NCBI GenBank assembly: GCA_030068145.1
Contig: JAPJBO010000512.1
Span: forward strand, 90,001 to 154,000
DNA: 64,000 nt
Source: Diplonema papillatum
Taxonomy: Eukaryota > Euglenozoa > Diplonemea > Diplonemida > Diplonemidae
Reading direction: 5' to 3'
Shown here piece by piece: positions 7,259 to 57,880 of the stretch. The notes beneath the pieces are model-generated. The model was not told the origin of the DNA, searched no databases, and saw nothing but the letters and a program-made list of their open reading frames with translations. Both the position numbers and the translations under genes were made by a program. Each line of letters starts with the position of its first letter. Positions within the stretch are counted from its first letter, which is position 1.

Positions 7259-7268
7259 AATTGACATT

Positions 7269-7660
7269 CGTTGAACGCTTACGCCCGCCACTAGACCCAG
7301 ATTTACCTGTGTTTCGTGTACAGCACACTTACCTCCTTTGATCTATCGCAACTGGCAGTCTCCTCAAGCAGTTCCTACAAAACAGGTGCTAATACAAAAT
7401 ACTCGAGGGGCTGCCTTGTGCTTACTTCGAAGGAGGCTAGAGGGGGAGAAACAATACAACTACAAAATGGTCTTTTATGTTGAACGCTTACGCCCGCCAC
7501 TAGACCCAGATTACCTGTGTTTCGCGTGGGCTACAGCACGTTTACCTCCTTTAAGGAAGGAATGCTGTGTTGCCATAGCGGGGATTCCCACACTATACTT
7601 TGAGATTTTGCAGCTGGCAGCCTCCTCAAGTATCTCCTACAAAGCAGGTGCTGAGACAAA
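7269..7660 (-). mobile_element. AB-element derivative, order A-B-A (YR retrotransposon remnant)
   Basis: On the minus strand this reads as an A half (7660-7475, with about 62 bp of extra sequence), a B half (7475-7399) and another A half (7398-7269). A and B are the terminal-repeat parts of the YR retrotransposon at 44946-49609. The A-B-A order is what an internally deleted element lacking B2 would leave, or partial tandem integration. The ORFs are absent. Confidence 0.75.
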
Positions 7661-11090: not shown

Positions 11091-11297
11091 TTTGTATACG
11101 CACCTGCTTTGTAGGAAATGCTTGAGGAGACTGCCAGTTGCGATAGATCAAAGGAGGTAAATGTGCTGTAGCCCAGGTAAAACTGGGTTTAGTGGCAGGC
11201 GTCAGCGTTCAACAAAAAAGACCCACTTTGTAGTTGTATTGTTTTCTCCCCGTCTAGCCTGCTTCGAAATGAGCACAAGGCAGTCCCTCGAGTATTC
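11091..11297 (-). mobile_element. Solo AB element (YR retrotransposon terminal repeat)
   Basis: On the minus strand it runs from TGTATACGCACCTGCTTTGT through GCGTTCAACAAAAAAGACCC to CCCTCGAGTATT. It is colinear with the AB unit at 44946-45166, with point differences and a short deletion in the middle (CACACGAAACA is missing). Flanks are T-rich. No ORF. Confidence 0.85.
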
Positions 11298-13988: not shown

Positions 13989-14196
13989 AGCTAGAGGGGG
14001 AGAAAACAATACAACTACAAAGTGGGTCTTTTTTAGAGTGAAAGTTCGCTTGAAACTCCTTTTTGTTGAACGCTTACGCCCGCCACTAAACCCAGATTTA
14101 CCTGTGTTTCTGTGGGCTACAGCACATTTACCTCCTTTGATCTATCGCAACTGGCAGTCTCCTCAAGCATTTCCTACAAAGCAGGTGGTTATACAA
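13989..14196 (-). mobile_element. AB element interrupted by the short dispersed motif
   Basis: Colinear with the AB unit but lacking the first bases of B. At the T6 tract that separates B from A, about 30 bp have been inserted: the TTAGAGTGAAAGTTCGCTTG motif seen at 9376 and elsewhere. No ORF. Confidence 0.8.
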
Positions 14197-16029: not shown

Positions 16030-16240
16030 AAATACTCGAGGGACTGCCTTGTGCGCATTTCGAAGGAGGGGGAGAAAACAATACAACTACAAAGTGGGTC
16101 TTTTTTGCTGAACGCTTACGCCCGCCACTAAACCCAGATTTACCTGTGTTTCGTGTGGGCTACAGCACATTTACCTCCTTTGATCTACCGCAACTGGCAG
16201 TCTCCTCAAGCATTTCCTACAAAGCAGGTGCTTAGACAAA
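16030..16240 (-). mobile_element. Solo AB element
   Basis: Colinear with the 216-bp AB unit, with a small deletion in B. The flanks are A-rich (CGAAAAATACTCGAG on the left, GACAAAATAAAAATAAATAA on the right), consistent with insertion in A/T tracts. No ORF. Confidence 0.85.
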
Positions 16241-16288
16241 ATAAAAATAAATAAACAAATAAATAGCGAGAGCGTAACGCGCGTTTCA

Positions 16289-16963
16289 CTACCGTGTCAA
16301 GCGTTTCCTACAAAGCAGGGTGCTTATACAAAAAGAACAAGGGTCAGACTTGAAACACGACGCAGGGCACAGCGCGACGACAGTGAAACCGAAGGCGGCT
16401 ACCATCAGCAGCACCAGCGACAGGTGCTCGTCTTGTGCACCTAGGTTTTCGACGGTGTAGATGATGCGGCACGTCTCGGTGTCCACGGCGATGCTGTCAG
16501 GAGACATGCGGAGCAGGTCTTCGGTATCGACCCCAGGGATGCGGATGTTCATCGTGTCCAGCGGTACCCACGCCAGCCCTCTGGACTCAGCCACGTTGCT
16601 GTCACACGTGATGGACAACGGGGTGAACACAAAGACGCTGCCGTGCAACCCGCTGTCTAAAGAAGGCGACGTGTGGTCGCCAGCAACGTGCTCTTCGCAC
16701 GTCCAGACGAAATCCAAAGACTCTTCAAGCGCGGCCGGGTCGTGGGTGCAGGTTGCTCCATCCAGCTTCATGTGGTGGCAGTTGAAGCCGTTGCACACGA
16801 ACTCGTCTACGGTCTTATGCCCAACGCCGGGTTCCCCGGCAGCGTGCACCGTCTTCCCGAGCTCAAACCGGACCATGGGCCCCAGGTCCTTCAGCCGCGC
16901 CAAGCGCGCCTCCGCAGGCAGAACGCACAGCGCCGCGGCCACCGCCGCCGCCACCCGCGCCAT
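16289..16963 (-). CDS. Small secreted/membrane Cys protein, possibly SARAF-like
   Basis: The frame runs from ATG 16963 to a stop at 16289 (224 aa). Residues 1-19 (MARVAAAVAAALCVLPAEAR) are a signal peptide. A Cys-containing luminal region follows (CNGFNCHH, GATCTHD, DFVWTCEE, LSITCDS, ETCRIIYTVE), then a membrane segment near residues 180-200 (LVLLMVAAFGFTVVALC). The W-x-C, S-x-x-C and C-x-x-x-Y order recalls SARAF, an ER regulator of store-operated calcium entry, but the match is only by eye. The last ~15 residues are encoded by a fragment of the AB element (16295-16335), so the native C-terminus is probably lost or lies in another exon. Six further copies of the 5' part lie upstream. Confidence 0.6.
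   Translation of the reverse strand: MARVAAAVAAALCVLPAEARLARLKDLGPMVRFELGKTVHAAGEPGVGHKTVDEFVCNGFNCHHMKLDGATCTHDPAALEESLDFVWTCEEHVAGDHTSPSLDSGLHGSVFVFTPLSITCDSNVAESRGLAWVPLDTMNIRIPGVDTEDLLRMSPDSIAVDTETCRIIYTVENLGAQDEHLSLVLLMVAAFGFTVVALCPASCFKSDPCSFCISTLLCRKRLTR
16295..16335 (-). mobile_element. AB-element fragment forming the end of the preceding ORF
   Basis: On the minus strand TTTTTGTATAAGCACC and GCTTTGTAGGAAACGCTTGA match the start of the A half. The host frame reads straight through it. Confidence 0.75.
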
Positions 16964-22433: not shown

Positions 22434-22862
22434 GGTTTGGTAGTTTGTTCTTCGCTTACACCACCGTGTGTTGTTTTCTCACTCAGGACTTTGACCTGTG
22501 GTGTTTGTGTGTCTTGTCGTGTAGGGGTAGCCCCGCGTGACCTCACGTCCGTTCAACACGTGGTTCGGTAGTTGCAGCACTTGGGAACCCCTTCGGTTCT
22601 TTGTTTAGTAGTTTTTTGTCGAGCATTTCCTTCCCGGGAATCCTTCGGTTCTTTGTCTAGCAGCTTTTGTCGAGCATTTCCTTCCCGGGAATCCTTCGGT
22701 TCTTTGTCTAGCAGCTTTTGTCGAGCATTTCCTTCCCGGGAATCCTTCGGTTCTTTGTCTAGCAGCTTTTGTCGAGCATTTCCTTCCCGGGAATCCTTCG
22801 GTTCTTTGACTAGCAGCTTTTGTCGAGCATTTCCTTCCAAGCTGGCGCTTCTGTAAAAAAAG
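22434..22862 (+). repeat. R4 repeat carrying a 51-bp minisatellite
   Basis: R4 begins TTTGTTCTTCGCTTACACCA and ends AGCTGGCGCTTCTGTAAAAA. It is also present at 44764-44950 (+) and 57715-57880 (-). In this copy the segment GGGAATCCTTCGGTTCTTTG through GTCGAGCATTTCCTTCCC is expanded to about four 51-bp units (22630-22835). The A-rich 3' end suggests retroposition, but no pol III box was recognised. Confidence 0.75.
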
Positions 22863-24123: not shown

Positions 24124-25378
24124 AGAGAGAGAGACGAGTTAGAGTGCAGGGACCATCTCTCCGAGGAGTATCCGGTCGCCCCACTACTATCCCGTACTAC
24201 TTCGGCGGGCGCAAGTCGTTGCGCCGTGGGCGCGGAGCGAGCCGTGGCCCTGTCAAAGATGATTGTTGCACCGATGGTGGCGCAGCCGGGGGCGTTCTGA
24301 CTGGCGGACGAGACCGCCTGGCAGGCGTGTGTTGGCACGTTGTTTCGCGGGCTTTCCTCCTTTTGGCAATAGCCCGCCCTATGGCGGCGGCTAGCATCTT
24401 GACAGAGAATCTCAACTCCCACTGAACATAGGGTACGTCGTGCGGATATTCAGGCACGGCATCGTTCCAGCTGTTACGGGCGCAAATTGTTTCCAGCTTG
24501 CCCAACATCCACTCGGTCTTCCGTCCAGCCGCAAAGCGTGGGCGGTGGGTACAACCCGGCATAGCCGGCGCACCAAAACAGCGGAGGGAACAGACCCCCT
24601 GCCGCCACTTCCCAGGGAAGGAGGCGACTCCTGAGTCGGCGCAGCACAGGTCGTTGATGGCTCGCATAAGGTACCCAATTTGCAGCCCCTTCTCGGCGAA
24701 GGTTCTCCCTGGGAGCTTCGAACGCGTAAATGCCTCAAAATCAAGCGCGAGTTCCACGCCTGTCGTCGGGAGAGGGTTGGAGCTGACCCATGATAGACTC
24801 CGCAGCCAGAAGACCAACGTCGCTGCGAAGCGGGTTCCGATGTTGGTCGTTAGCAACTTACGACTGTCCGTTGCTAAGTGTACGTCGTATTTCGTCGACG
24901 CACCTGAGGCGAGTTCCCAAGGGCGTGTTGCCGCAAGGCGCCGCTGCGCCTGCGCCATCTCGATTGAGATCGTACCGATCAGCCTCTGGATCTTCTCCAG
25001 GAGGTCAGGAGGGGTCCCGTAGGGGGGTATCCCTCTAATGCACAAGCACTGGGGCATGTCCCGGACCATCGCCTCAGCAATGCAAAACCGGGATCGCAGC
25101 TCGTTCCATCTACAACCTGGGCCCGGACATTGCCAGTAGTAATGCCACAGGGTCCCCGTCGCACCGCTGTCGCAGAACTCGCAGTCGCCGCTCCCCGAAC
25201 CCCACTTCCTGCGGCACCATTCCCGTGAGTACACCGCTCCCCCAATACATCGACTGATCGCGGAACTCAATTTGTGGTCCGTCGCGCGGTTCAGCCAAAG
25301 CCGATTCATGGCACGTAAGTCCACCCCTCCTTCGATTCCGTCAAATCCTTGTCTCTGTGTGGTCAAGTAACGCCACGC
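24124..25378 (-). mobile_element. 5'-truncated non-LTR retrotransposon (LINE) 3' end
   Basis: The minus strand keeps one frame open from about 25370 to the stop at 24197. It encodes about 390 residues: LNRATDHKLSSAISRC, then a CCHC-type zinc motif (CEFCDSG...HYYWQCPG) and a long basic tail. This arrangement is seen at the C-terminus of LINE polyproteins after the RT domain. The RT itself is missing, so the copy is 5' truncated. The 3' end carries a short CT tail (GAGA on plus). A related copy is at 42690-43118. AT-rich TACAATAATG repeats flank it on both sides. Confidence 0.72.
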
Positions 25379-25515
25379 TATATATATACAATAACTGTAC
25401 AATAATGTACAATACTGTACAATAATGTACAATAATATACAATAATGTACAAAAATGTACAATAAAAATACAATAATTCTTGGTCGGCGGGGGAAATACA
25501 ATAATGTACAATAAT
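25379..25515. repeat. AT-rich (TACAATAATG)n array
   Basis: Imperfect GTACAATAATGTACAATA units at the 5' truncation point of the LINE fragment. Same family as 23005-23155. Confidence 0.8.
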
Positions 25516-26711
25516 CCATTCGTTTCACAACCGTGTACTCTCCTTTTTTTTTTTTTCTCTCTTTTTTTGAAAGTATGCAAATGCCGCGGGGGATCGTTGA
25601 CCCGAGAGGCAATGTGTAAAGAAATACAGTCTTGAGGGCAGACCCATCGCAACCTGAACGAGAAAACGCACACTCCGGTTCGGTGCGGGTGGTAGTGTGC
25701 CCATGAAGCCATGCACTTTGCTCCAGCTCTCATCGTTGCTGTTAATGGCAGGGCCGACATCATCCATTTTCGGGACCGGCGCATTCGGCAGGTGAGTTGT
25801 TACACATTCATTATCGGATGCCGACTTCCATGGCCACCGTCCTGCTGTCAAGATGAACCAACACCCTTTGTGGGATCTGATGAGCGATCACTCGGACACC
25901 TTAAGTCAGCTCTCGGTTCATCCCGCGTCGCCCGTCCTGCTTACCAGAAGTGGCCCAGTTAGAACCAGGGTTCTACGTCAGGGCTCAATGAAGGAACCCC
26001 GAGCTCACGCCCATTTAAAGTTTGAGAATAGGTTGAGGAAGCGATTTCCCCAATGCCTCCTACCATTCGCTTTACCGGCAGCAGGGCCATCAGTCCATCA
26101 TGAGCTTGCGCCTATGCTTTCTCGTGCCCTTGTCCAACAATTCTTGCACAACAGAGCCTGCTTATCGCCGGAATCGGCACACAGCAGTGGGTTGATACTG
26201 TTTAGCAGAAATTTCTTCACAACTTTTTCGCAATCAGTGTTGACCCATAGTACTGCGGAGTTCTGCAAAGCTCTGCAAAAATTTGCGAAAGGTTGCAACA
26301 AGTTGTTAGTGTGGTACTCATTTGCATGCGAATGAATCCCCACCAACGCAACAAGGAGACAACAAGTTGTGAAAACTTGTGTATTGATTTTCTCGCTGGG
26401 ATATTTTTGCCCCTGTCCCTCCCTACACGAGGGCCCGGATGGGGCAACCGGAGCATATGGAGGGCATCGTATTATGGAGGACATGCCCAAGCGGTAACAA
26501 GTTGTGAAAAGTTGCAACAAGTTGTGAAAAGTTGCGTATTGATCTGAAATTCAGATTTCTGCTATAAAAGAAAAAATGGTGGATCACCCCCACAACAGCT
26601 AGTTTCCTGCCTGTACCCAACCGTCAGCATGTATAATATTATTGCGCTACGCCCCGCCTCACCTTTCTCCGGGGCGTTGGCAGCAACACGAAGGGGAGAG
26701 AGAGAGAGAGC
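25516..26711. other. Unassigned region with GTTGCAACAAGTTGTG repeats
   Basis: No gene recognised. Between 26200 and 26545 there are short repeats (AACAAGTTGTGAAAA, three copies) and a TCATTTGCATGCGAATGA palindrome (26319-26336) related to those at 13878 and 50410. A T/C-rich run lies at 25540-25567. Confidence 0.45.
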
Positions 26712-30332: not shown

Positions 30333-30531
30333 GCGCTTGGTTCCACGATGCCCGTCTGAGAGCTATGAAAACGATGTTCGACTGGCTGACAAATATCACC
30401 CGAAAAGGTGATCAGCGCCTGCTGTTCAACCTGTGTACGAGACACGCAGCCGATCGTCATCTGACGGTGGCTTTCGCATTACCCGTCTCTCCGGCAGATT
30501 TTGCCTGCAAATCGATGGCTCGCAGATATCA
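30333..30531. other. Flank of the 85-bp array
   Basis: Contains diverged pieces related to the array's left flank (TTTGCTTTCGCAACACCCGTCTC versus GGCTTTCGCATTACCCGTCTC). No gene. Confidence 0.5.
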
Positions 30532-31577
30532 ATGCTTGAGGAGACTGCCAGTTGCGATAGATCAAAGGAGGTAAATGTGCTGTAGCCCACACGAAACACA
30601 GGTAAATCTGGGCTCAGTGGCGGGCGTAAGCGTTCAACAAAAAAGACCCACTTTGTTGGTGTGGTCGGTGGGCCAGTTCCCCGTAGTTCCCCCGTAGTTC
30701 AACATGGGGGGGGCACGTGTGGCCCTATTTACGCTCTTTTTGGGCAAAATCCAAGATCCTATTTACGTTTTTTTGCACTTTTTCCGCCTGTTTTTGCACC
30801 CGTTTTGGATCGCAGCTACACTGAGAGGGTGAAAGATTTCGGACGGAGGAATGTCGGATCGGACTCTTCGCGCTTTCGCTTTCTTTCTGTCGTCTGTGCT
30901 AAGGAGGTTGTACCAGCACTGCCGCTAAGATCATCACCATCATCACAATCGGAAGTTTGTCAGGCGCAAGTTCCAACAGGAACTCGAATGGCTTTGTGTC
31001 AACGCTTGCCAATATAAAGCTAAGACCTTCAGAGGCTCCTAGCTTGGTCACAAAACATTTCTGAATAGTTCTTCATCGAACGAAGAAATCGAGCCGAGCC
31101 AGGACCAGTACAAGCACACAATGGTAGCAACTGAGCTTTTCCTTCAGTCCTCTGGGGAACGTTGAAGGGGGCCCGGTAGCGAGCTTTACTTAGGTTCCTG
31201 CAAGCGTGAGCCAACCGACTTCTGCGAGTCCTACGATAGCGTTCGAGTCTACTTTCCAACGAATCCTTCATGCCACGGCACCACGAAAGCACCACCCCCG
31301 ACACCCCGAAGGCTCCATTTTTCAAAAGGCTTGTCCCTTCTGTGGAAAGCCCAAGCAAGAGGAACCGTTTTGCTCACTCCAAAGCTCCCGGTTTGGCGCC
31401 AGTGCGTGGCGTTTCAAAAATCCACTACAAAAAAAAAAAGACACCCCAAGGTCAGTTCCCCGTAGTTCCCCCGTAGTTCCCCCTGGCTATACCGACCACA
31501 CCATTTGTAGTTGTATTGTTTTCTTCCTCCCTCTAGCCTCCTTCGAAATGAGCACAAGGCAGTCCCTCGAGTATTTT
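30532..31577 (-). mobile_element. AB element split by a nested TIR transposon
   Basis: The A half (30532-30656, lacking its outer ~25 bp) and the B end (31504-31577) of one AB element are separated by the 847-bp element described next. Removing that element and one copy of TTTGT restores the uninterrupted AB sequence CCCACTTTGTAGTTGTATTG. Confidence 0.88.
30657..31503. mobile_element. 847-bp non-autonomous DNA transposon with 13-bp TIRs
   Basis: Perfect 13-bp TIRs TGGTGTGGTCGGT (30657-30669) and its inverse (31491-31503). A 5-bp target duplication TTTGT flanks it (30652-30656 and 31504-31508), inside an AB element. Just inside both ends is a direct repeat, CAGTTCCCCGTAGTTCCCCC. No transposase frame is present. 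Confidence 0.9.
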
Positions 31578-43980: not shown

Positions 43981-44010
43981 CGGCGTTTTTATTTTTCTTC
44001 TTCTTCTCCT

Positions 44011-44226
44011 TGTATAAGCACCTGCTTTGTAGGAAATACTTGAGGAGGCTGCCAGCTGCAAAAGATCAAAGGAGGTAAATGTGCTGTAGCCCACACGAAA
44101 CACAGGTGAATCTGGGTCCAGTGGCGGGCGTAAGCGTTCAACAAAAAAGACCCACTTTGTAGTTGTATTGTTTCTCCCCCTCTAGCCTCCTTCGAAGTAA
44201 GCACAAGACAGCCCCTCGAGTATTTC
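44011..44226 (-). mobile_element. Solo AB element
   Basis: An uninterrupted 216-bp AB unit, from TGTATAAGCACCTGCTTTGT to AGCCCCTCGAGTATT in minus-element orientation, flanked by T/C-rich sequence. Close in sequence to the termini of the full element 0.7 kb away. Confidence 0.9.
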
Positions 44227-44504: not shown

Positions 44505-44690
44505 CCGTGTGCTCAACACCGCAATGGTCCCATCTGCACTGTGTTTTCGGTCCTTTGAGCCGCGGACACATATCACCAGCAGCAGACAGGACAGGGGCGT
44601 GAATCTGCTTTGCCAGGCGGCTGGATAGCTCGTCACAGCCAGGACCACCCACGCTGCGAGAGCACAGGAAAATCCGGGTGAGAAAATACT
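44505..44690 (+). repeat. Diverged R2 repeat
   Basis: TGCTCAACACCGCAATGGTC, TTTCGGTCCTTTGAGCC and TAGCTCGTCACAGCCAGGAC mark a diverged copy with several short deletions. Confidence 0.65.
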
Positions 44691-44763
44691 CGACGTAGCT
44701 GCTTCGACTCCGAATGGAAGGGAGGAAATATAGAGGTAGAGGGGCAAATACAATACAAACACA

Positions 44764-44945
44764 ATCTGATTTGTTCTTCGCTTACACCATCCAAACCTGT
44801 TGTGTTTGTGCGATTTGTCGTGTAGGGGTAAACCCGCATGACCTCACGTCCGTTCAACGCATGGTTAGGTAGTTACAGCACTTGGGATCCCTTCTGTTCT
44901 TTGTCGGGCATCGTCGAGCATTTCCTTTCAAGCTGGCGCATATGT
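44764..44945 (+). repeat. R4 repeat, target of the YR retrotransposon
   Basis: R4 without the 51-bp expansion. Its 3' A tract (GCGCATATGTAAAAA) is where the YR retrotransposon's outer B2 end begins, so the element inserted into this A run. Confidence 0.75.
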
Positions 44946-45166
44946 AAAAATACTCGAGGGGCTGCCTTGTGCTTACTTCGAAGGAGGCTAGAGGGGGAGA
45001 AACAATACAACTACAAAATGGGTCTTTTTTGTTGAACGCTTACGCCCGCCACTAAACCCAGATTCACCTGTGTTTCGTGTGGGCTACAGCACATTTACCT
45101 CCTTTGATCTTTTGCAGCTGGCAGCCTCCTCAAGTATTTCCTACAAAGCAGGTGCTTATACAAAAA
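44946..45166 (-). repeat. A2-B2 terminal unit of the YR retrotransposon
   Basis: 216-bp period, repeated directly at 45167 as B1. Boundaries follow from the repeat of TACTCGAGGGG at 44951 and 45167. It would be the circle-junction-bearing repeat in the YR integration model. Confidence 0.85.
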
Positions 45167-45261
45167 TACTCGAGGGGCTGCCTTGTGCTTACTTCGAAGG
45201 AGGCTAGAGGGGGAGAAACAATACAACTACAAAATGGGTCTTTTTTGTTGAACGCTTACGC
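45167..45261 (-). repeat. B1 half-repeat of the YR retrotransposon
   Basis: From AATACTCGAGG to the shared GTTGAACGCTTACGC. The internal region begins at 45262. Confidence 0.85.
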
Positions 45262-45289
45262 ATCAGGACCCCCAGGGACCACGCAGTGG

Positions 45290-47055
45290 CTACACCAAAT
45301 CTGAAGGCGGAGCAAGGTCCTCCGCTTGAGGCGACCAGACGCCCTCTGGCGTGTCGTCCTCTCTGGCTAGCACCCCGCGGGTGTACGGGTCGGCTCTCTG
45401 TTTATCAGTCGGTACCCACTCGGCACTGATGACAAGGCCGGCCGCCCGCGCAGCATCAAAAATCCTCGCCAAAAGGACATTTGCTGCAAAGTTCTTCGAG
45501 TGCCCCTTGACGAGACACTGGACAGCCGGAAGGTTGTCAACCATGAGTCTCATGCGCGTATTCGTGTGAAACCTTGCGGTCAGGTTTATGCCCCTAAGGA
45601 CCGCAAACAACTCCTTTAAAAAGATGTGAGTGTGTCTCAACTTCAAGAACGGGCCCTGCGATATCCGCTCAGGTTCGCCCTCCAGGACTGCGGCCCACCA
45701 TGATGATGAGGCGTCTGTCCAGAGAGTCACCGATGAGGAGATCGACTTCGAACGACTGACCCAGCGGTTGTCTTCGACGAGGGAGGTGAGGTGCTCCACC
45801 TCACGCACGGTCGAGGGCGGAACCGTCCTGGAGATGTCCCAGTCAGCTGGCTCCACCAGGGATGAGGCCAGCCTCTGCAGGAAGGACAGTGAACACCGGG
45901 CGTAGGCCAGCTGGAAATGCGTGGTGTAGGCAAACCAGACCAAAGCCCCAAACACCCGGTAAAACTCGCGGGGTGACGCCCCTCCGCGTTTAACTCTGGT
46001 GAGTTCGGCAGAGCCAAGTAACTTCGTCACCCATGCGTCCGCCATTCTGTATCGAGCGGGGCGGTTCGAATGGGAAAGGTCAAAGTGGAGGCCCAGAAGG
46101 TCGAACTCCCTGAGCGGTATTCCAAACTGCTCGTCGTTTTCGTTGAGCTCGCAGTTGACGCTCTTGCAGCGCTGCAAAAAAGAGTCAAACCGCGAAGTTG
46201 CTTCTCCCAACGAATCCCCAACGACGACGAAGTTGTCGACCCAGGGCAGACCGTCAGACTCCGGCAGGAGTACTCGAGAGGCCCTCTGCGCTATCGCCGG
46301 AGCCCAGCTCCAGCCCATGCACATGGCCACGAGCTGAGCCTTCACGAAATGGCCCCGCGGTCCGGCCAAGTGCATGCCAAAAAATGGGCGGATTCTCGCG
46401 TCCAGCCGGAACTGATAGAAATAGCTCCTGGCGTCTGCGAGAAAAACCACGGACGAGGCCAGGACGCGGTCGATGACTTCGTGCACGGAAGGAAGCAGCA
46501 TCGGAGGCGGACGCGCCATGATCGCGTTGAGCTTCCGCCCGTCACATACGAATCGTTGCCCCCCGCTCTTCTTGTCGACAGTGAAGGCAGGGAGGACGAC
46601 CTTTGACGGGCTCGAAGCAAGCTCCGTCACTCCATACTTAACCAGATCCGGGAGATGACGAAGCATGCGCCTTGACGTCGTCCGCGTGAACCCTCTTTCT
46701 GTCAGCGCTTCCTCCGCTCCCGGGAGTAGGGCAGAACGGAAGGACTCCCAAGAGCGAATCACATCCAGCACGCCACGCAGCAAACCCTGGCTGTCCAAAG
46801 CTGACAACCTGTCAAGGTTCATGAATGACGACGAGATGGGCGCGAGGTCCTCTCCTCTTCTGCTTTGCGACGGGGGGGGCGTAGAGTTGTTGACAAGGAG
46901 ATCGCCTCCGTACGCGACACCAACAAACGGGGTGAACGTAGAGGGCGGTAGCTCCACGTCAGGGATCCTCCCCGGCCCTGGATAAATCGCCGCCAGCGGG
47001 TCGGGGACTTTCCTCTTCGGTAGCTTGAACGGGAAAGGGGGTTCGAGGCGAAAGG
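45290..47055 (-). CDS. Reverse transcriptase-RNase H of the YR retrotransposon
   Basis: The frame is open from 47497 to the stop at 45290. The part before about 47055 overlaps the recombinase frame and looks like its shadow, so translation probably enters by frameshift or reinitiation. It lies in the -1 frame relative to the recombinase. RT motifs: KKSGGQRFVCDGRKLNA, VVFLADARSYFYQFRLD, KAQLVAMCMGWSWAPAIAQ, then PWVDNFVVVGDS where most elements have YxDD. RNase H residues: VTLWTDASSSWWAA (Asp), FLKELFAVLRGI (Glu), MRLMVDNLPAVQ (Asp), WVPTDKQRADPYTRG (Asp). It copies element RNA into DNA and removes the RNA strand. WVDN in place of xVDD is odd and may impair or alter activity. The start is uncertain. 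Confidence 0.88.
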
Positions 47056-47991
47056 CTATAGGAGACTCGCCGACGCCTCCGCGGTGTTCCGGACGAGCGG
47101 AACCTCCGCTTCCGGAAGGTACCGCATCAGAGCACTCAGCGTCGTGTGACGCGACACGCTCTGAATCACTCGCAGGTCGACCCCGCTTCTCAACAGGTGG
47201 AACAGGGCACCCCGCCGGAGGGAATGGCCCGTGAGGGAGAGGTTGGCGCGCTTCAGCGCGGACACAACTCGCCGAAAAGGGATGTCTGGAAACAGGAGGC
47301 GGCCGGGCGGCGTCTGAGACAGCAGCGAGCGAAGTTCCTGGTCCTGAGCTGGCGGAAGAATCACGCCCGTAACCTGACCTAGGCGGAAAGGATCCGACTT
47401 CGAGCCCACCCAGTTTACCGCCCAGAAACCGGCACCCTCGGTGATGTGCTCGGCCTTCCTCGTCAGGACGTCGTCCACGCGCGCAGCCCCCTGCCATGCC
47501 AAGGCCAACGCAACCCGCACGCCGGGATCCGACTCCAAACGAACAGCATGATGCAGTTCGTCCTTCGTCACCGGGACGGCCTGCTTCGATGGCTTCATCG
47601 CGCCCGCCCGCTTCAGAGACCTGACAAAATCCCTGACGAGCTGGCTGTCGACAGGTCGCCCCAAACGCTTCTCGGCCGACTGAACGTTCACGACGTACTG
47701 CACCGCAGAAGCTGCGCAGATATCCCCGCGGGCCAGCAGCCGAGTCACAAACAGGACCAGCGCCGTCGGGACGTCGAGGGGATCGTCGGACACCGCTTCC
47801 CAGTGGCGCCGGAACTCCAGAAAACGGCGATACACGGAGTGGATCCCGCGACGCGTGGACAGCGCCAGGGCATCCCCAATGTACGTGTTCGCGGACCGGA
47901 CAAGACGTTCCCGCTCGCCGGGGGAGAGCGGGGGCTCCGACAGGAGAGGACGTCCGCGTCGCCCCGCCACAGGAGGTGGGAAACGGTCCAA
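47056..47991 (-). CDS. Tyrosine recombinase of the YR retrotransposon
   Basis: About 311 residues. No ATG is present at the proposed 5' end (TTG at 47991), and the gag stop lies 6 bp upstream, so expression by -1 frameshift from gag or by reinitiation is likely. An N-terminal SAM-like core-binding region (RERLVRSANTYIGDALALST, HSVYRRFLEFRRHW) precedes the catalytic domain. Visible catalytic residues: Arg in WQGAARVDDVL, His and Arg in LTGHSLRRGA, His in SVSRHTTLSALM and Tyr in MRYL, giving the R-H-R-H-Y set. It would integrate a circular DNA intermediate without target duplication. It sits between gag and RT, as in VIPER. Confidence 0.9.
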   Translation of the reverse strand: MDRFPPPVAGRRGRPLLSEPPLSPGERERLVRSANTYIGDALALSTRRGIHSVYRRFLEFRRHWEAVSDDPLDVPTALVLFVTRLLARGDICAASAVQYVVNVQSAEKRLGRPVDSQLVRDFVRSLKRAGAMKPSKQAVPVTKDELHHAVRLESDPGVRVALALAWQGAARVDDVLTRKAEHITEGAGFWAVNWVGSKSDPFRLGQVTGVILPPAQDQELRSLLSQTPPGRLLFPDIPFRRVVSALKRANLSLTGHSLRRGALFHLLRSGVDLRVIQSVSRHTTLSALMRYLPEAEVPLVRNTAEASASLL

Positions 47992-47996
47992 GGCAC

Positions 47997-49472
47997 CTAC
48001 TGCCTGGCCCTCCCCTTGGCTGAGGTTGCTCGCTGAGGGTGCTGGGAGTCGGGGTGAGCTTCGCCCGGGTGTTGGGTGCGGGACTTCGGGCTGCGCTTCC
48101 TGGACGGCTTGGGGGCGGGCTGTTCCTCGGCTTTCTGCAGGGCCTGAAAGGCGTTCCGAAGATACGGAGGGAACCCGGCCTCGTGCTGGTGGCGGTGTTG
48201 GAGGCCGGCGGCCAACGACCAGCCGGCCTTCAAGGCCGTCTTGAGGACCATCATGCGGTGGATGGTGTCCCTCCCCAGCTCTACCAGGGCGTCGGGGTCG
48301 GAGGAGTCGTCCATCAGACGCATGATGGACGTTGCGTGGCTGAGCAGGTGTCCTGCGTCGTTGGCGATGCTCGGGACGGCGTCGAGTATATCCGCGAAGA
48401 AGCCGCGGATGTGGACGAGCGCGAGAGACCTCTCGACGGGAGAGAGGCTCACCCAGAGCTCGGGGTCGAGTAGCTCTGGTCCGGGAGAGAGAAGCGTGTG
48501 GGAGCCCTGGACCGACCCGCCTCCCCCCAGCGAAGACGGGTCCTCCGGAAAATCCGGAAGTGGATGGCTGGCGTAGGGCTGGCGGGGCTCGGCGTACGGC
48601 TGGTGGCAGGATGCGGCTGGCGGGCAGCGATAGCCCACTGGCAGAGGACCGCCCACGACGGCTTGCGGAAGGTTGCGAGGATTGTCCGGCAACAGGACAG
48701 CCCGCGGAAGGCGAGAAACGTCAACGAGGGGCGGAGGCGGCGGGAGTGGTCTCGTGAACGCCGGAAGCTGATGCAGCACTGGACCGGGGCATGTGCCCAC
48801 CGACGTGGGCGGAACGGGACGGGAGCCCGCGGGTGCCGCCTCAGGTGCTGCCTCAGGGGCGGGCGAAGGCCGGACGGGTGGCGAGGTGCGCGTTGGGAGG
48901 GCCGCCATCACCAACTCGGTGAGGCGGTCGATCTGACGCTGCAGCCGGCCTATGTCCGACGCGTGGTCGTCCCGGCCGCCCCCGGCGGAGTTGCATTCCC
49001 TCAGATCGTCGTCATCTGGGCTGAGGGGATCGTCGCTCTCGGCGAAAGAGACACGTCGCGCGGCTGGGGGAGATGGGCCGAACAATGCAGCGGTGGTCGA
49101 GTCGTCAGCGGGAGAAACGGTCGCGGGGAGCGGCATGTGCCCCGGCGTCTGCGGCGGGGGCGTGGCCTTCGGAGACGAGCGGAGCAGGTCCGCGAACTCG
49201 TCCGCGGTGGCGGACGGAGCCGACGCGACCGCCAGCCACGCGAGGACCCACTGGGCCACGCCTTCGGGGGGGGCCTCCTCGTCCGTGTACCCCAAGGCGC
49301 CCAGAAGGCGCCTCAGCCCCGCCTCCGCGGTCCCCTCGACGTCGCGCGCGACCTTGAGTACCGCCGCGAGTCGGCGGTTGTTTGCGGTGAATGAAAGAAG
49401 GGACGGGACATCAGTCCCGACCACCCTCTTCACCCAACTCACCGCGCCCGACCTGTCGAGTTGCTTCGGCAT
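47997..49472 (-). CDS. Gag-like protein of the YR retrotransposon
   Basis: Starts at ATG 49472, immediately inside the A1 repeat, and stops at 47997 (491 aa). The N-terminal ~110 residues look globular (MPKQLDRSGAVSWVKRVVGT, AGLRRLLGALGYTDEEAP). A long Pro/Ser/Ala-rich middle with an acidic patch (SDDPLSPDDDDLRE) follows. A helical region near residues 340-430 (SPVERSLALVHIRGFFADIL ... RDTIHRMMVLKTALK) comes before a basic C-terminus (PKPSRKRSPKSRT). There is no CCHC knuckle. Position and composition fit a nucleocapsid-like ORF1. No sequence family is recognised. The downstream recombinase is in the -1 frame. Confidence 0.75.
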   Translation of the reverse strand: MPKQLDRSGAVSWVKRVVGTDVPSLLSFTANNRRLAAVLKVARDVEGTAEAGLRRLLGALGYTDEEAPPEGVAQWVLAWLAVASAPSATADEFADLLRSSPKATPPPQTPGHMPLPATVSPADDSTTAALFGPSPPAARRVSFAESDDPLSPDDDDLRECNSAGGGRDDHASDIGRLQRQIDRLTELVMAALPTRTSPPVRPSPAPEAAPEAAPAGSRPVPPTSVGTCPGPVLHQLPAFTRPLPPPPPLVDVSRLPRAVLLPDNPRNLPQAVVGGPLPVGYRCPPAASCHQPYAEPRQPYASHPLPDFPEDPSSLGGGGSVQGSHTLLSPGPELLDPELWVSLSPVERSLALVHIRGFFADILDAVPSIANDAGHLLSHATSIMRLMDDSSDPDALVELGRDTIHRMMVLKTALKAGWSLAAGLQHRHQHEAGFPPYLRNAFQALQKAEEQPAPKPSRKRSPKSRTQHPGEAHPDSQHPQRATSAKGRARQ

Positions 49473-49609
49473 TTTTGTTGAACGCTTACGCCCGCCACTA
49501 AACCCAGATTCACCTGTGTTTCGTGTGGGCTACAGCACATTTACCTCCTTTGATCTTTTGCAGCTGGCAGCCTCCTCAAGTATTTCCTACAAAGCAGGTG
49601 CTTATACAA
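49473..49609 (-). repeat. A1 half-repeat of the YR retrotransposon
   Basis: Colinear with A2 (GTTGAACGCTTACGCCCGCC to AGGTGCTTATACAA), with very few differences. A poly-A tract of about 16 bases follows at 49610-49626. Confidence 0.85.
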
Positions 49610-49914
49610 GAAAAAAAAAAAAAAAACGGATCTGCACTTTCTTAGTGCGCACTTTCTTCAAACGTGTTTCGTACACCTAACGGGGGTGAGGACAGCACGC
49701 TGTCATTGGATCGGCTTCTGCTCGCTGACAAATTGCACAAGTTTGACAATTTTAGAGTGCAAGTTCGCTCAGGGATCCGGGGTTTTAAAGTCTCCGGGTG
49801 ACCATGTCGTAAAGGTTCCTTTAAGGTATAGTATGTGTTAGAGTGCGTATCGTATCTGCTGCAGTGGCAGTACGTGTGCTTGTATTTTTTTGTTAGACAC
49901 ATCCCCTGGCTTCG
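49610..49914. other. Spacer with the short dispersed motif
   Basis: 49670-49745 resembles the GTGCGCACTTCCTTCAAAC / GGGAGTGAGGATAGTACGCTG segment found in the 809-bp units at 19855-19940 and 20660-20745. 49751-49812 is a copy of the TTAGAGT motif (TTTTAGAGTGCAAGTTCGC, CCGGGTGACCATG). No gene. Confidence 0.55.
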
Positions 49915-55989: not shown

Positions 55990-56100
55990 CAGTAACATTA
56001 CAATTCAATTGTATTATACGGTTGGGATGCGCCGATTCCCCGACAAAAAAATTCAATTGTAGTATACGGTTCAATTGTATTATACGGTTCAATAGTAATT
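55990..56100. repeat. AT-rich TTCAATTGTATTATACGG repeats
   Basis: Four imperfect copies of CAATTGTA(T/G)TATACGGTT occur, one within GGGATGCGCCGATTCCC sequence. Confidence 0.7.
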
Positions 56101-56175
56101 AGCCCCCCCCAGTAACCGCTGACCGGATTAGAGTCGCTCTGGACGAGAATTCTGAACTGCTTGAACCAGAAAGTG

Positions 56176-56722
56176 GGTATACAGGACTTCTGTAGGACTT
56201 GAATATAGGGCCTGCTGGAATACACCCATTGGTATACAGGACTTCTGTAGGACTTGAATATAGGGCCTGCTGGAATACACCCATTGGTATACAGGACTTG
56301 AATATAGGGCCTGCTGGAATACACCCATTGGTATACAGGACTTCGTAGGACTTGAATATAGGGCCTGCTGGAATACACCCATTGGTATACAGGACTTCTG
56401 TAGGACTTGAATATAGGGCCTGCTGGAATACACCCATTGGTATACAGGACTTCTGTAGGACTTGAATATAGGGCCTGCTGGAATACACCCATTGGTATAC
56501 AGGACTTCTGTAGGACTTGAATATAGGGCCTGCTGGAATACACCCATTGGTATACAGGACTTCTGTAGGACTTGAATATAGGGCCTGCTGGAATACACCC
56601 ATTGGTATACAGGACTTCTGTAGGACTTGAATATAGGGCCTGCTGGAATACACCCATTGGTATACAGGACTTCTGTAGGACTTGAATATAGGGCCTGCTG
56701 GAATACACCCATTGATATACGC
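56176..56722. repeat. 55-bp minisatellite, ~10 units
   Basis: Unit: GGTATACAGGACTTCTGTAG, GACTTGAATATAGGGCC, TGCTGGAATACACCCATT. The units are almost identical, with one short deletion each in units 3 and 4. Since 55 is not a multiple of three and no minus-frame reading of the unit contains a stop, all three minus frames stay open for about 190-235 codons. This is a repeat artefact rather than evidence for a gene. Confidence 0.92.
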
Positions 56723-57714
56723 CCCCTTCAAAGACGAATGCCTACGGCGCAAGTCACCAGCTCGCACTGATGACGTCCCTGCCATTCGTACACACTCGTT
56801 TCTGTCTCGAAGTCACGTTACCGAAGACCAAGCAGAAGGAATGGTCACCCAGTGCTCCCACTACGAAAAAGCCGGCCGGAAACGACACAGAAGTCTGCTC
56901 TCGAAAAGCACCCCCCAGCTGAACGAGAGCTTCTTTACGACGCCACAGCCTACGTGCTCTGCATGGGGCGCGGGTCGACCGGCGGCGGCGCGCAGTGCTT
57001 ACTGGTCTGCCTGCGCCTTTCGTTCGCTGGCGAAAAGTCTGCGGGATACTTCTTGGTGCGGTGACTGCAAGAAAGAACGAAGAGTAATCAACCCATCCAA
57101 AGTAAACCTATCACTTACATTGCGCAGGGGCAAGATGAAAAATACCCGTTCAGGGGACTTACGGAAATAAGCTTGTCTGGACAAGGTCGCAGGGGGAAAA
57201 TCTTAGGCAACATATCAGTAATCTATTGGCGACCGTTCAAATAAGTAGAGACCATCTGGACGTCAACCCCGGGTCATTTTCTTGGTGCGTGTATGCAGTG
57301 CTAACCTCACTTTTACTGAGGAACCCTAAAAACCTGGTTTAGGCTTTTTTCTTCTCCCCCGCTAGGCTCTCGCGTTTTGATGCAGGCTAATAGCTTCTGT
57401 TGCAGGGGGGCACCCGAGTCTTCCAAAGGGGCCGGCCCCCGGCGAACGGTATCAACGGGAAAAGGGTGAGGAATTCCTCATGAGGGATTCCTCACCCTCT
57501 TTTCTCCAGCCTCTTTTGTTTTTGAGGAATTCCTCGCACTTTTTCGTTAGCGGGAGCACTGGGTGAAGGACTGCCACAGCTTCCCCTGTGTCACCGTACT
57601 ATACCACTAGGGGCACTACGAGGACCTAGACCTTGTGGGCTTCGGCTCTTTATCCAGGGCACTGTCATTTTCCTGAGCAGTAGCTCAAAAAAATGACATT
57701 TTGCGTGTCGTACA
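56723..57714. other. Unassigned sequence
   Basis: No gene recognised. Contains a small inverted repeat GTGAGGAATTCCTCATGAGG at 57465-57500. Frames here are short and domainless. Confidence 0.45.
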
Positions 57715-57880
57715 GTTTTTTTACATAAGCGCCAGCTTGAAAGGAAATGCTCGACGATGCTGCCCGACAAAGAACAGAAGGGATCCCAAGTGCTGTAACT
57801 ACCGAACCACGTGTTGAACGGGCGTGAGGTCATGCGTACACGACAAATCACACCAACACAACAGGTCAAAGTCCTAGTAA
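57715..57880 (-). repeat. R4 repeat, inverted copy
   Basis: Inverse of the R4 unit at 44764-44945 (ACATAAGCGCCAGCTTGAAA; GAAGGGATCCCAAGTGCTGT; GTGAGGTCATGCG), including the A-rich 3' end. Confidence 0.78.

Follow-up and report, generated by a model that had tools for sequence, protein, structure and literature searches.

What kind of retrotransposon lies in a 64,000-nucleotide stretch of contig JAPJBO010000512.1 (positions 90,001 to 154,000; hereafter the window), and is it a single oddity or one member of a family? The initial annotation, made from the letters of the window, had described an intact VIPER-like tyrosine-recombinase (YR) retrotransposon and had left it between a VIPER-type lineage outside kinetoplastids and a convergent rearrangement. 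VIPER-like elements are defined by the gene order gag, YR, reverse transcriptase/RNase H (RT/RH) and by repeats in the layout A1...B1-A2-B2; they are reported from kinetoplastids, and matches in two bacteria are contamination according to the authors (PMC6681497; here and below we refer to the accessible text of a cited article). Our analysis of the window and of the host genome makes it very likely that this is a recently mobile, probably still competent YR retrotransposon of VIPER organization in a diplonemid, with a life cycle that would pass through a trans-spliced RNA.

An intact element bounded by split direct repeats

The intact element occupies positions 44948 to 49609 of the window on the minus strand (Table 1), within 2 bp of the location first proposed, for which no strand had been given. 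In coding direction it consists of A1, a gag-like open reading frame (ORF), YR, RT/RNase H, B1, A2 and B2. A measures 138 bp and B 98 bp, with a 20-bp core that closes A and opens B, giving a complete AB unit of 216 bp. A search for direct and inverted repeats found the repeats of the window copy to be direct, and A1 is identical to A2 and B1 to B2, which confirms the A1-ORFs-B1-A2-B2 termini and the shared core noted earlier.

Dozens of copies and three further families in the host genome

We searched a genome of 271 Mb in 2,910 contigs. Among 75 scored RT matches (from 2,234 first-look candidates), 38 had the full score over all 586 residues, as did 41 of 127 scored YR matches (from 1,743 candidates). 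The host genome holds at least dozens of near-identical copies of the family to which the window element belongs, F1. The 30 best loci among the scored RT matches, the window copy included, differ in the RT region by a mean of 0.37 nucleotides (nt) in 1,758, with a maximum of 2, showing that the F1 burst is recent. B1 equals B2 in 28 of the 29 loci measured (L027 was left out), and the remaining one is off by 1 nt in length. The flanks of the F1 copies differ, save for two pairs of loci, among the 30, with a common 3' flank. These pairs (L002/L005 and L014/L029) lie on different contigs and may represent duplicated contigs, haplotypes or segmental copies.

Three further families were found: F2 (L065), with 91% YR and 83% RT identity to F1; F3 (L066), with 74% and 64%; and F4 (L108, partial), with 46% and 53% over 206 amino acids (aa). 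In all four families YR is followed by RT with a -1 step between the two; F4 was covered over 1.8 kb, in which the repeats were not seen. F1 to F3 each have the order gag-YR-RT/RH on one strand, A1 at the 5' end and B1-A2-B2 at the 3' end, repeats that match one another at 99 to 100% inside a given copy, and a core of 20 bp, whose sequence differs in F3 (in F2 and F3 the repeat search was limited to direct repeats). The search for other full copies, named at the outset as a check, thus returned F1 by the dozens and the same repeat layout in two further families. A convergent rearrangement of a single copy is refuted because the three further families share the YR-before-RT order, down to 46% YR identity. 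Copy number and these families likewise rule out an assembly error joining unrelated pieces, given the full-score matches with differing flanks. No relatives were found in prokaryote genomes or IMG/VR viral contigs by pattern scans, or in plasmids by tblastn with one RT.

Conserved recombinase and selection on all three ORFs

The YR ORF matches Pfam Phage_integrase (E = 1e-8, above its cut-off). Its catalytic set R-K-H-R-H-Y, listed earlier without the lysine, is complete and invariant across the four families, the residues having the roles usual in the recombinase family. The RT motif A aspartate is invariant in F1 to F4, and the closest solved structures are weak matches (4ol8, a Ty3 RT, E = 0.095; "POL protein," 0.12; Ty3 Gag-Pol, 0.7). 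The gag-like ORF has no significant Pfam domain, and the box CX2CX4HX4C is present in none of the three families F1 to F3. A methyltransferase had no match among Pfam families in F1 to F3 proteins, an absence of a match only. Ratios of nonsynonymous to synonymous divergence (dN/dS) among F1 to F3 were 0.29 to 0.49 for gag, 0.08 to 0.15 for YR and 0.11 to 0.13 for RT, showing purifying selection on all three ORFs, with the caveat that silent distances to F3 are 1.1 to 2.5, near saturation.

The RT frame is kept open through the recombinase gene

The gag-YR-RT order of the initial annotation stood, but its three ORFs are not three simple genes, because neither the YR frame nor the RT frame has an ATG that is conserved across families. 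The YR ORF starts without ATG, at TTG in F1, GTG in F2 and CTG in F3. An ATG start for RT was considered and rejected: the sole RT-frame ATG ahead of the YR end sits at one place in F1 and at another in F2, and F3 has none. Not a single stop interrupts the RT frame across YR in four of four families, against 5.4 to 8.6 expected from 1,000 synonymous shuffles (P = 0.000 to 0.003 each; the families being related, these are not four independent tests). By the same procedure the third frame is not depleted, with 11 to 16 stops against 9.0 to 12.0 expected. This avoidance of RT-frame stops suggests that translation of RT probably starts, or enters by a frameshift, near the gag/YR border and passes through YR out of frame.

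Neither frame is significantly depleted of stops in the last 75 codons of gag; over its last 200 codons the YR frame is depleted in F1 (P = 0.019) and F2 (P = 0.010) and not quite in F3 (0.061). By eye, no -1 slippery heptamer at gag/YR or YR/RT is common to three families. The NTG codons at which YR begins in F1 to F3 directly follow the gag stop, which is suggestive of termination-reinitiation there.

Spliced-leader scars mark four copies

The euglenozoan spliced-leader (SL) 22-mer occurs 608 times in the genome, against 0 for a reversed control, and in three of four loci printed it is preceded by ACCAACGATTTAAAAG. Together with this upstream part it is the "Euglenozoa 14" leader of PMC3795323. 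The host is most likely a marine diplonemid flagellate, of the sister group of kinetoplastids. The leader itself is Diplonema's. The placement of a VIPER-type element outside kinetoplastids thus held in architecture and very likely holds in host. At L061 to L064 (C1, C3, C7 and C8) the leader is followed by an ordinary-looking 5' untranslated region or coding start (L061 and L064; by eye), and these loci are perhaps SL-tagged retrocopies of host mRNAs.

Four copies of the element (C110, C122, C208 and C286) carry a leader scar, against 0 in a reversed-pattern control. In all four, A position 97, the base directly after CACAG in A, follows the 3' end of the leader exon with nothing between. The upstream joins differ: 18 bp of A terminus in C110; about 64 bp of A terminus in C122; in C286, a piece that combines A, 46 bp of B and 124 bp also found 3' of the same element; and plain genomic flank in C208. 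C122 belongs to a 98% subfamily and has a one-base difference beside the join. All four scars precede gag, one of them with a one-base variant core. In our reading of the scars, cDNA synthesis ran on into the leader and would then have been completed on another A-terminus template, as the split-repeat model demands; in the normal case the leader would leave no trace. Neither the scars nor the high-copy families are visible from the window sequence alone. Among the matches listed in a search of the literature on leaders and retrotransposons, we found none that describes leader scars in an element of this kind.

Insertion at T-tracts without target-site duplication

We asked where the copies sit. 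In 17 of 19 intact 5' ends at least 8 of the last 12 nt are T, and the other two have 7; 1.2% of window positions pass the same test. The sample comprised 20 fetched ends, minus L069 and L074 (A start missing or altered), plus the window copy, and includes three leader-scarred copies. In 16 of 16 copies with both flanks there is no target-site duplication beyond 0 to 5 shared nt, T only except for one TTC, a duplication of a few T being indistinguishable from the T-tract; C264 and C286 were left out of this comparison for their altered 5' ends. Another A start stands directly 3' of B2 in 4 of the 30 loci, of F3 type at L006 (the window copy) and L027 and of F1 type at L018 and L028, as expected if the T-tract beside an A serves as target.

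We propose the following cycle. The element would be transcribed, and the host would add the SL at CACAG/GTGAATC in A1, removing the first 96 nt of A1, as read from the scars. Gag would be read from the first AUG, and YR and RT/RH from the -1 and +1 frames via frameshift or re-initiation. The cDNA would reach the 5' end of the RNA and then switch template, either to the internal A2 or to the A carried by another AB RNA, so that the lost A terminus would be restored, a step suggested by the layout of the split direct repeats together with the scars; on the same grounds, B1 may restore B2 likewise. The DNA product, probably a circle with one AB unit, would be joined by the YR to chromosomal T-tracts.

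An estimated 2,400 AB units outside full copies

Exact strings spanning the core and B number 2,828 in the genome, and those spanning the core and gag 212; variant-core copies are missed by such counts. Each full copy accounts for two core-B strings and one core-gag string, so subtraction gives an estimate of about 2,400 AB units outside full copies. For F3, a pattern that does not admit the base present in the fetched F3 copy matched 12 gag-linked cores, a count that we set aside. We sampled 20 of the first 24 places listed, picked far from the next match, a choice that favours solo units. None of the 20 had F1 or F3 internal sequence in 801 bp, which bears out the parallel to the short element SIRE that had been drawn from the window. 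The sampled units are dispersed, with A 89 to 99% identical; 13 of the 20 have an exact start, and 10 of these 13 pass the T-tract test. One carries a 192-bp insert, and at least two retain only the first third of B. Solo units might be products of recombination between A1 and A2, or AB might itself be mobilised. As all four scars precede gag, no exact scar at this site occurs in the other AB units, which speaks against solo units as copies of RNAs spliced there.

The AB units of L099 and L082 are broken at the same point, at about B position 46 after GTTT. The interrupting pieces differ (192 bp and at least 124 bp), which looks like a point of entry for other sequences. C280 holds a tandem array of AB units.

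Relation to known elements

The element is likened to VIPER of Trypanosoma cruzi and other kinetoplastids (with TATE) by architecture. Gene order and repeat layout are alike, with repeats identical within some VIPER copies (PMC6681497), as are the overlapping YR and RT/RH frames, a short A2B2 derivative (SIRE) and the lack of a target duplication (PMC6681497, PMC12278014). It differs in its diplonemid host, its 20-bp A/B core and its dozens of near-identical intact copies. It also inserts at T-tracts, whereas the terms "target site" and "insertion site" are absent from the accessible text of PMC6681497. The gag here has no CH-box, but neither do several VIPER copies, so that this box is not defining (PMC6681497). 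All reported VIPER cases have kinetoplastid hosts and this one very likely does not, a matter of range and not of definition. SIRE is the A2B2 unit, and diversity of transposable elements in this diplonemid has been called low (PMC12278014). The solo units resemble SIRE of T. cruzi as a high-copy A2B2 unit, but measure 216 bp, and about 30 bp are peculiar to SIRE (PMC6681497).

DIRS1-like elements have inverted terminal repeats and an internal complementary region, whereas the window element has direct repeats, and the methyltransferase of PAT and DIRS1-like elements was not found here. In Ngaro elements RT precedes YR, an order that the present element does not have. PMC3783388 lists Ngaro as gag, pol, YR; A-pol-B-A-B repeats and the lack of a methyltransferase are common to Ngaro and our element (PMC3783388, PMC4157794). 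The D. papillatum genome has been described as having more than 60 ORFs that resemble DNA-transposon proteins, including TATE, MULE and Helitron (PMC10161547), and for its TATE-like ORFs we found no structure, repeats, families or assignment to YR retrotransposons in the accessible text of that article. In dinoflagellate SL-tagged retrogenes, 5' leader relics also mark RNA-mediated copies (PMC12014239), but those are host genes, whereas here an autonomous YR element has had its repeat end rebuilt beside the leader in three of four cases. Judged by title and start of abstract, no match listed in the open-access literature reports a diplonemid VIPER, DIRS or Ngaro. To our knowledge, the kind of element is thus already known; its host lineage, its target at T-tracts and the leader scars appear new.

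Strength of the interpretation and alternatives

Several observations weigh against a competent VIPER-type element with a trans-spliced cycle. The RT ORF matches Pfam RVT_1 with E = 2e-4, below the cut-off, and no Pfam match to RNase H was obtained in the element proteins, RNase H being predicted from a D-E-D-D pattern by eye. Motif C reads WVDN (window positions 46232 to 46243) in place of the usual YxDD; this is unusual for an active RT, and RT activity is therefore assumed from selection and copy number. WVDN is invariant in F1 to F3, the F4 stretch stopping short of it. Some copies are not independent insertions, because two locus pairs have their 3' flank in common. With only four scarred copies, the main template could be unspliced RNA, and the scarred C208 is without any A terminus. 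Allowing up to 2 mismatches, we found no F3 scar at the acceptor guessed for that family, a guess that may be wrong, and the F2 form of the F1/F2 scar pattern had no match in the genome.

The likeness to VIPER could also be convergent, in a Ngaro- or PAT-type lineage whose YR moved ahead of RT. Such elements have A1-B1-A2-B2 repeats too, structural features of these elements are believed to have originated repeatedly (PMC4157794), and the weak structural matches of the RT leave room for this origin. We consider it improbable: no methyltransferase domain was found, YR precedes RT in four families down to 46% YR and 53% RT identity, the overlapping frames and solo A2B2 units match VIPER, and the host very likely comes from the sister group of the sole reported VIPER hosts. 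It seems highly improbable that the scars are SL RNA genes inserted or converted into A1, and not traces of trans-spliced RNA. The 608 leader copies and the presence of other pieces inside AB units would fit such insertions, but the 3' end of the leader exon meets the same AG/GT point in four of four cases while the 5' joins all differ, and gag follows every scar.

The solo AB units could be independent elements resembling short interspersed elements, captured as ends by the autonomous element and not derived from it. Their estimated excess over the 212 gag-linked cores, their dispersal with A 89 to 99% identical, and the T-tracts at 10 of 13 intact starts speak for this. Recombination between A1 and A2 would yield exactly AB, as solo long terminal repeats form, and the AB of F3 is a different one, with a core specific to that family; on balance we regard capture as unlikely.

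Other features of the window

Table 1 lists the parts of the element and the related repeats around it. More solo or broken AB pieces of F1 and F3 lie at seven or more places in the window, with tandem pieces of the A start within 22636-22856. On the minus strand, a 471-aa ORF at 24197-25612 with a CX2C...H...C pattern resembles the C-terminal part of a non-LTR retrotransposon, and open frames at 55998-56785 consist of a tandemly repeated peptide (both by eye). Elsewhere in the genome, L107 (C643:26000-30500) is a lone tyrosine recombinase with a 418-aa open frame and no RT in 4.5 kb, likely of Crypton type (by eye); further strong YR groups occur at C175/C1574, C423, C37, C573 and C447.

TABLE 1 Coordinates of the retrotransposon, its parts and related repeats in the window
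Feature	Position	Strand	Basis or remark
A1, 5' split direct repeat, 138 bp including the 20-bp core	49472..49609	-	Identical to A2; starts TTGTATAAGC
20-bp A/B core; final base is the A of the gag ATG	49472..49491	-	Repeat comparison
B1, internal repeat, core at its start	45164..45261	-	Repeat comparison
A2, internal repeat, core at its end	45026..45163	-	Repeat comparison
B2, 3' terminal repeat, core at its start	44948..45045	-	Repeat comparison
gag-like ORF, 491 aa	47997..49472	-	dN/dS 0.29-0.49; no significant Pfam domain
Tyrosine recombinase ORF, 311 aa, R171-K198-H256-R259-H282-Y291	47056..47991	-	Pfam Phage_integrase; dN/dS 0.08-0.15
RT/RNase H part of third ORF	45290..47053	-	Motifs; dN/dS 0.11-0.13
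Upstream extension of RT frame, open through YR from end to end and through the final 76 gag codons	47054..48229	-	Frame scan
Putative SL acceptor AG in A1, A position 95-96	49514..49515	-	Inferred from leader joined at next base in four other copies
16-bp A-run (+ strand; T-tract in coding orientation), one base off the 5' end of the element	49611..49626	.	Flank sequence
Solo AB unit, family F3; element inserted exactly at its A start	44684..44947	-	Repeat comparison
Solo AB unit, own family F1, 98-99% identical, orientation opposite to element	44010..44225	+	Repeat comparison
F1/F3 AB pieces	7267-7659, 11092-11296, 13990-14196, 16030-16331, 22444-22856, 30531-31576, 57721-57870		Repeat comparison

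Implications for VIPER-type elements

From the scars one can tell which RNA served as template in at least some cases, and they make the proposed template-switch model for split direct repeats testable. We suggest, tentatively and with somewhat less than even confidence, that these repeats serve to undo trans-splicing through a template switch on A2. If so, the common ancestor of diplonemids and kinetoplastids, two groups with trans-spliced mRNAs, would already have had VIPER-type elements. The diplonemid copies, intact and nearly identical, push back the possible age of VIPER-type elements; with them, the life cycle of such elements could be studied in a free-living host from the kinetoplastids' sister group.

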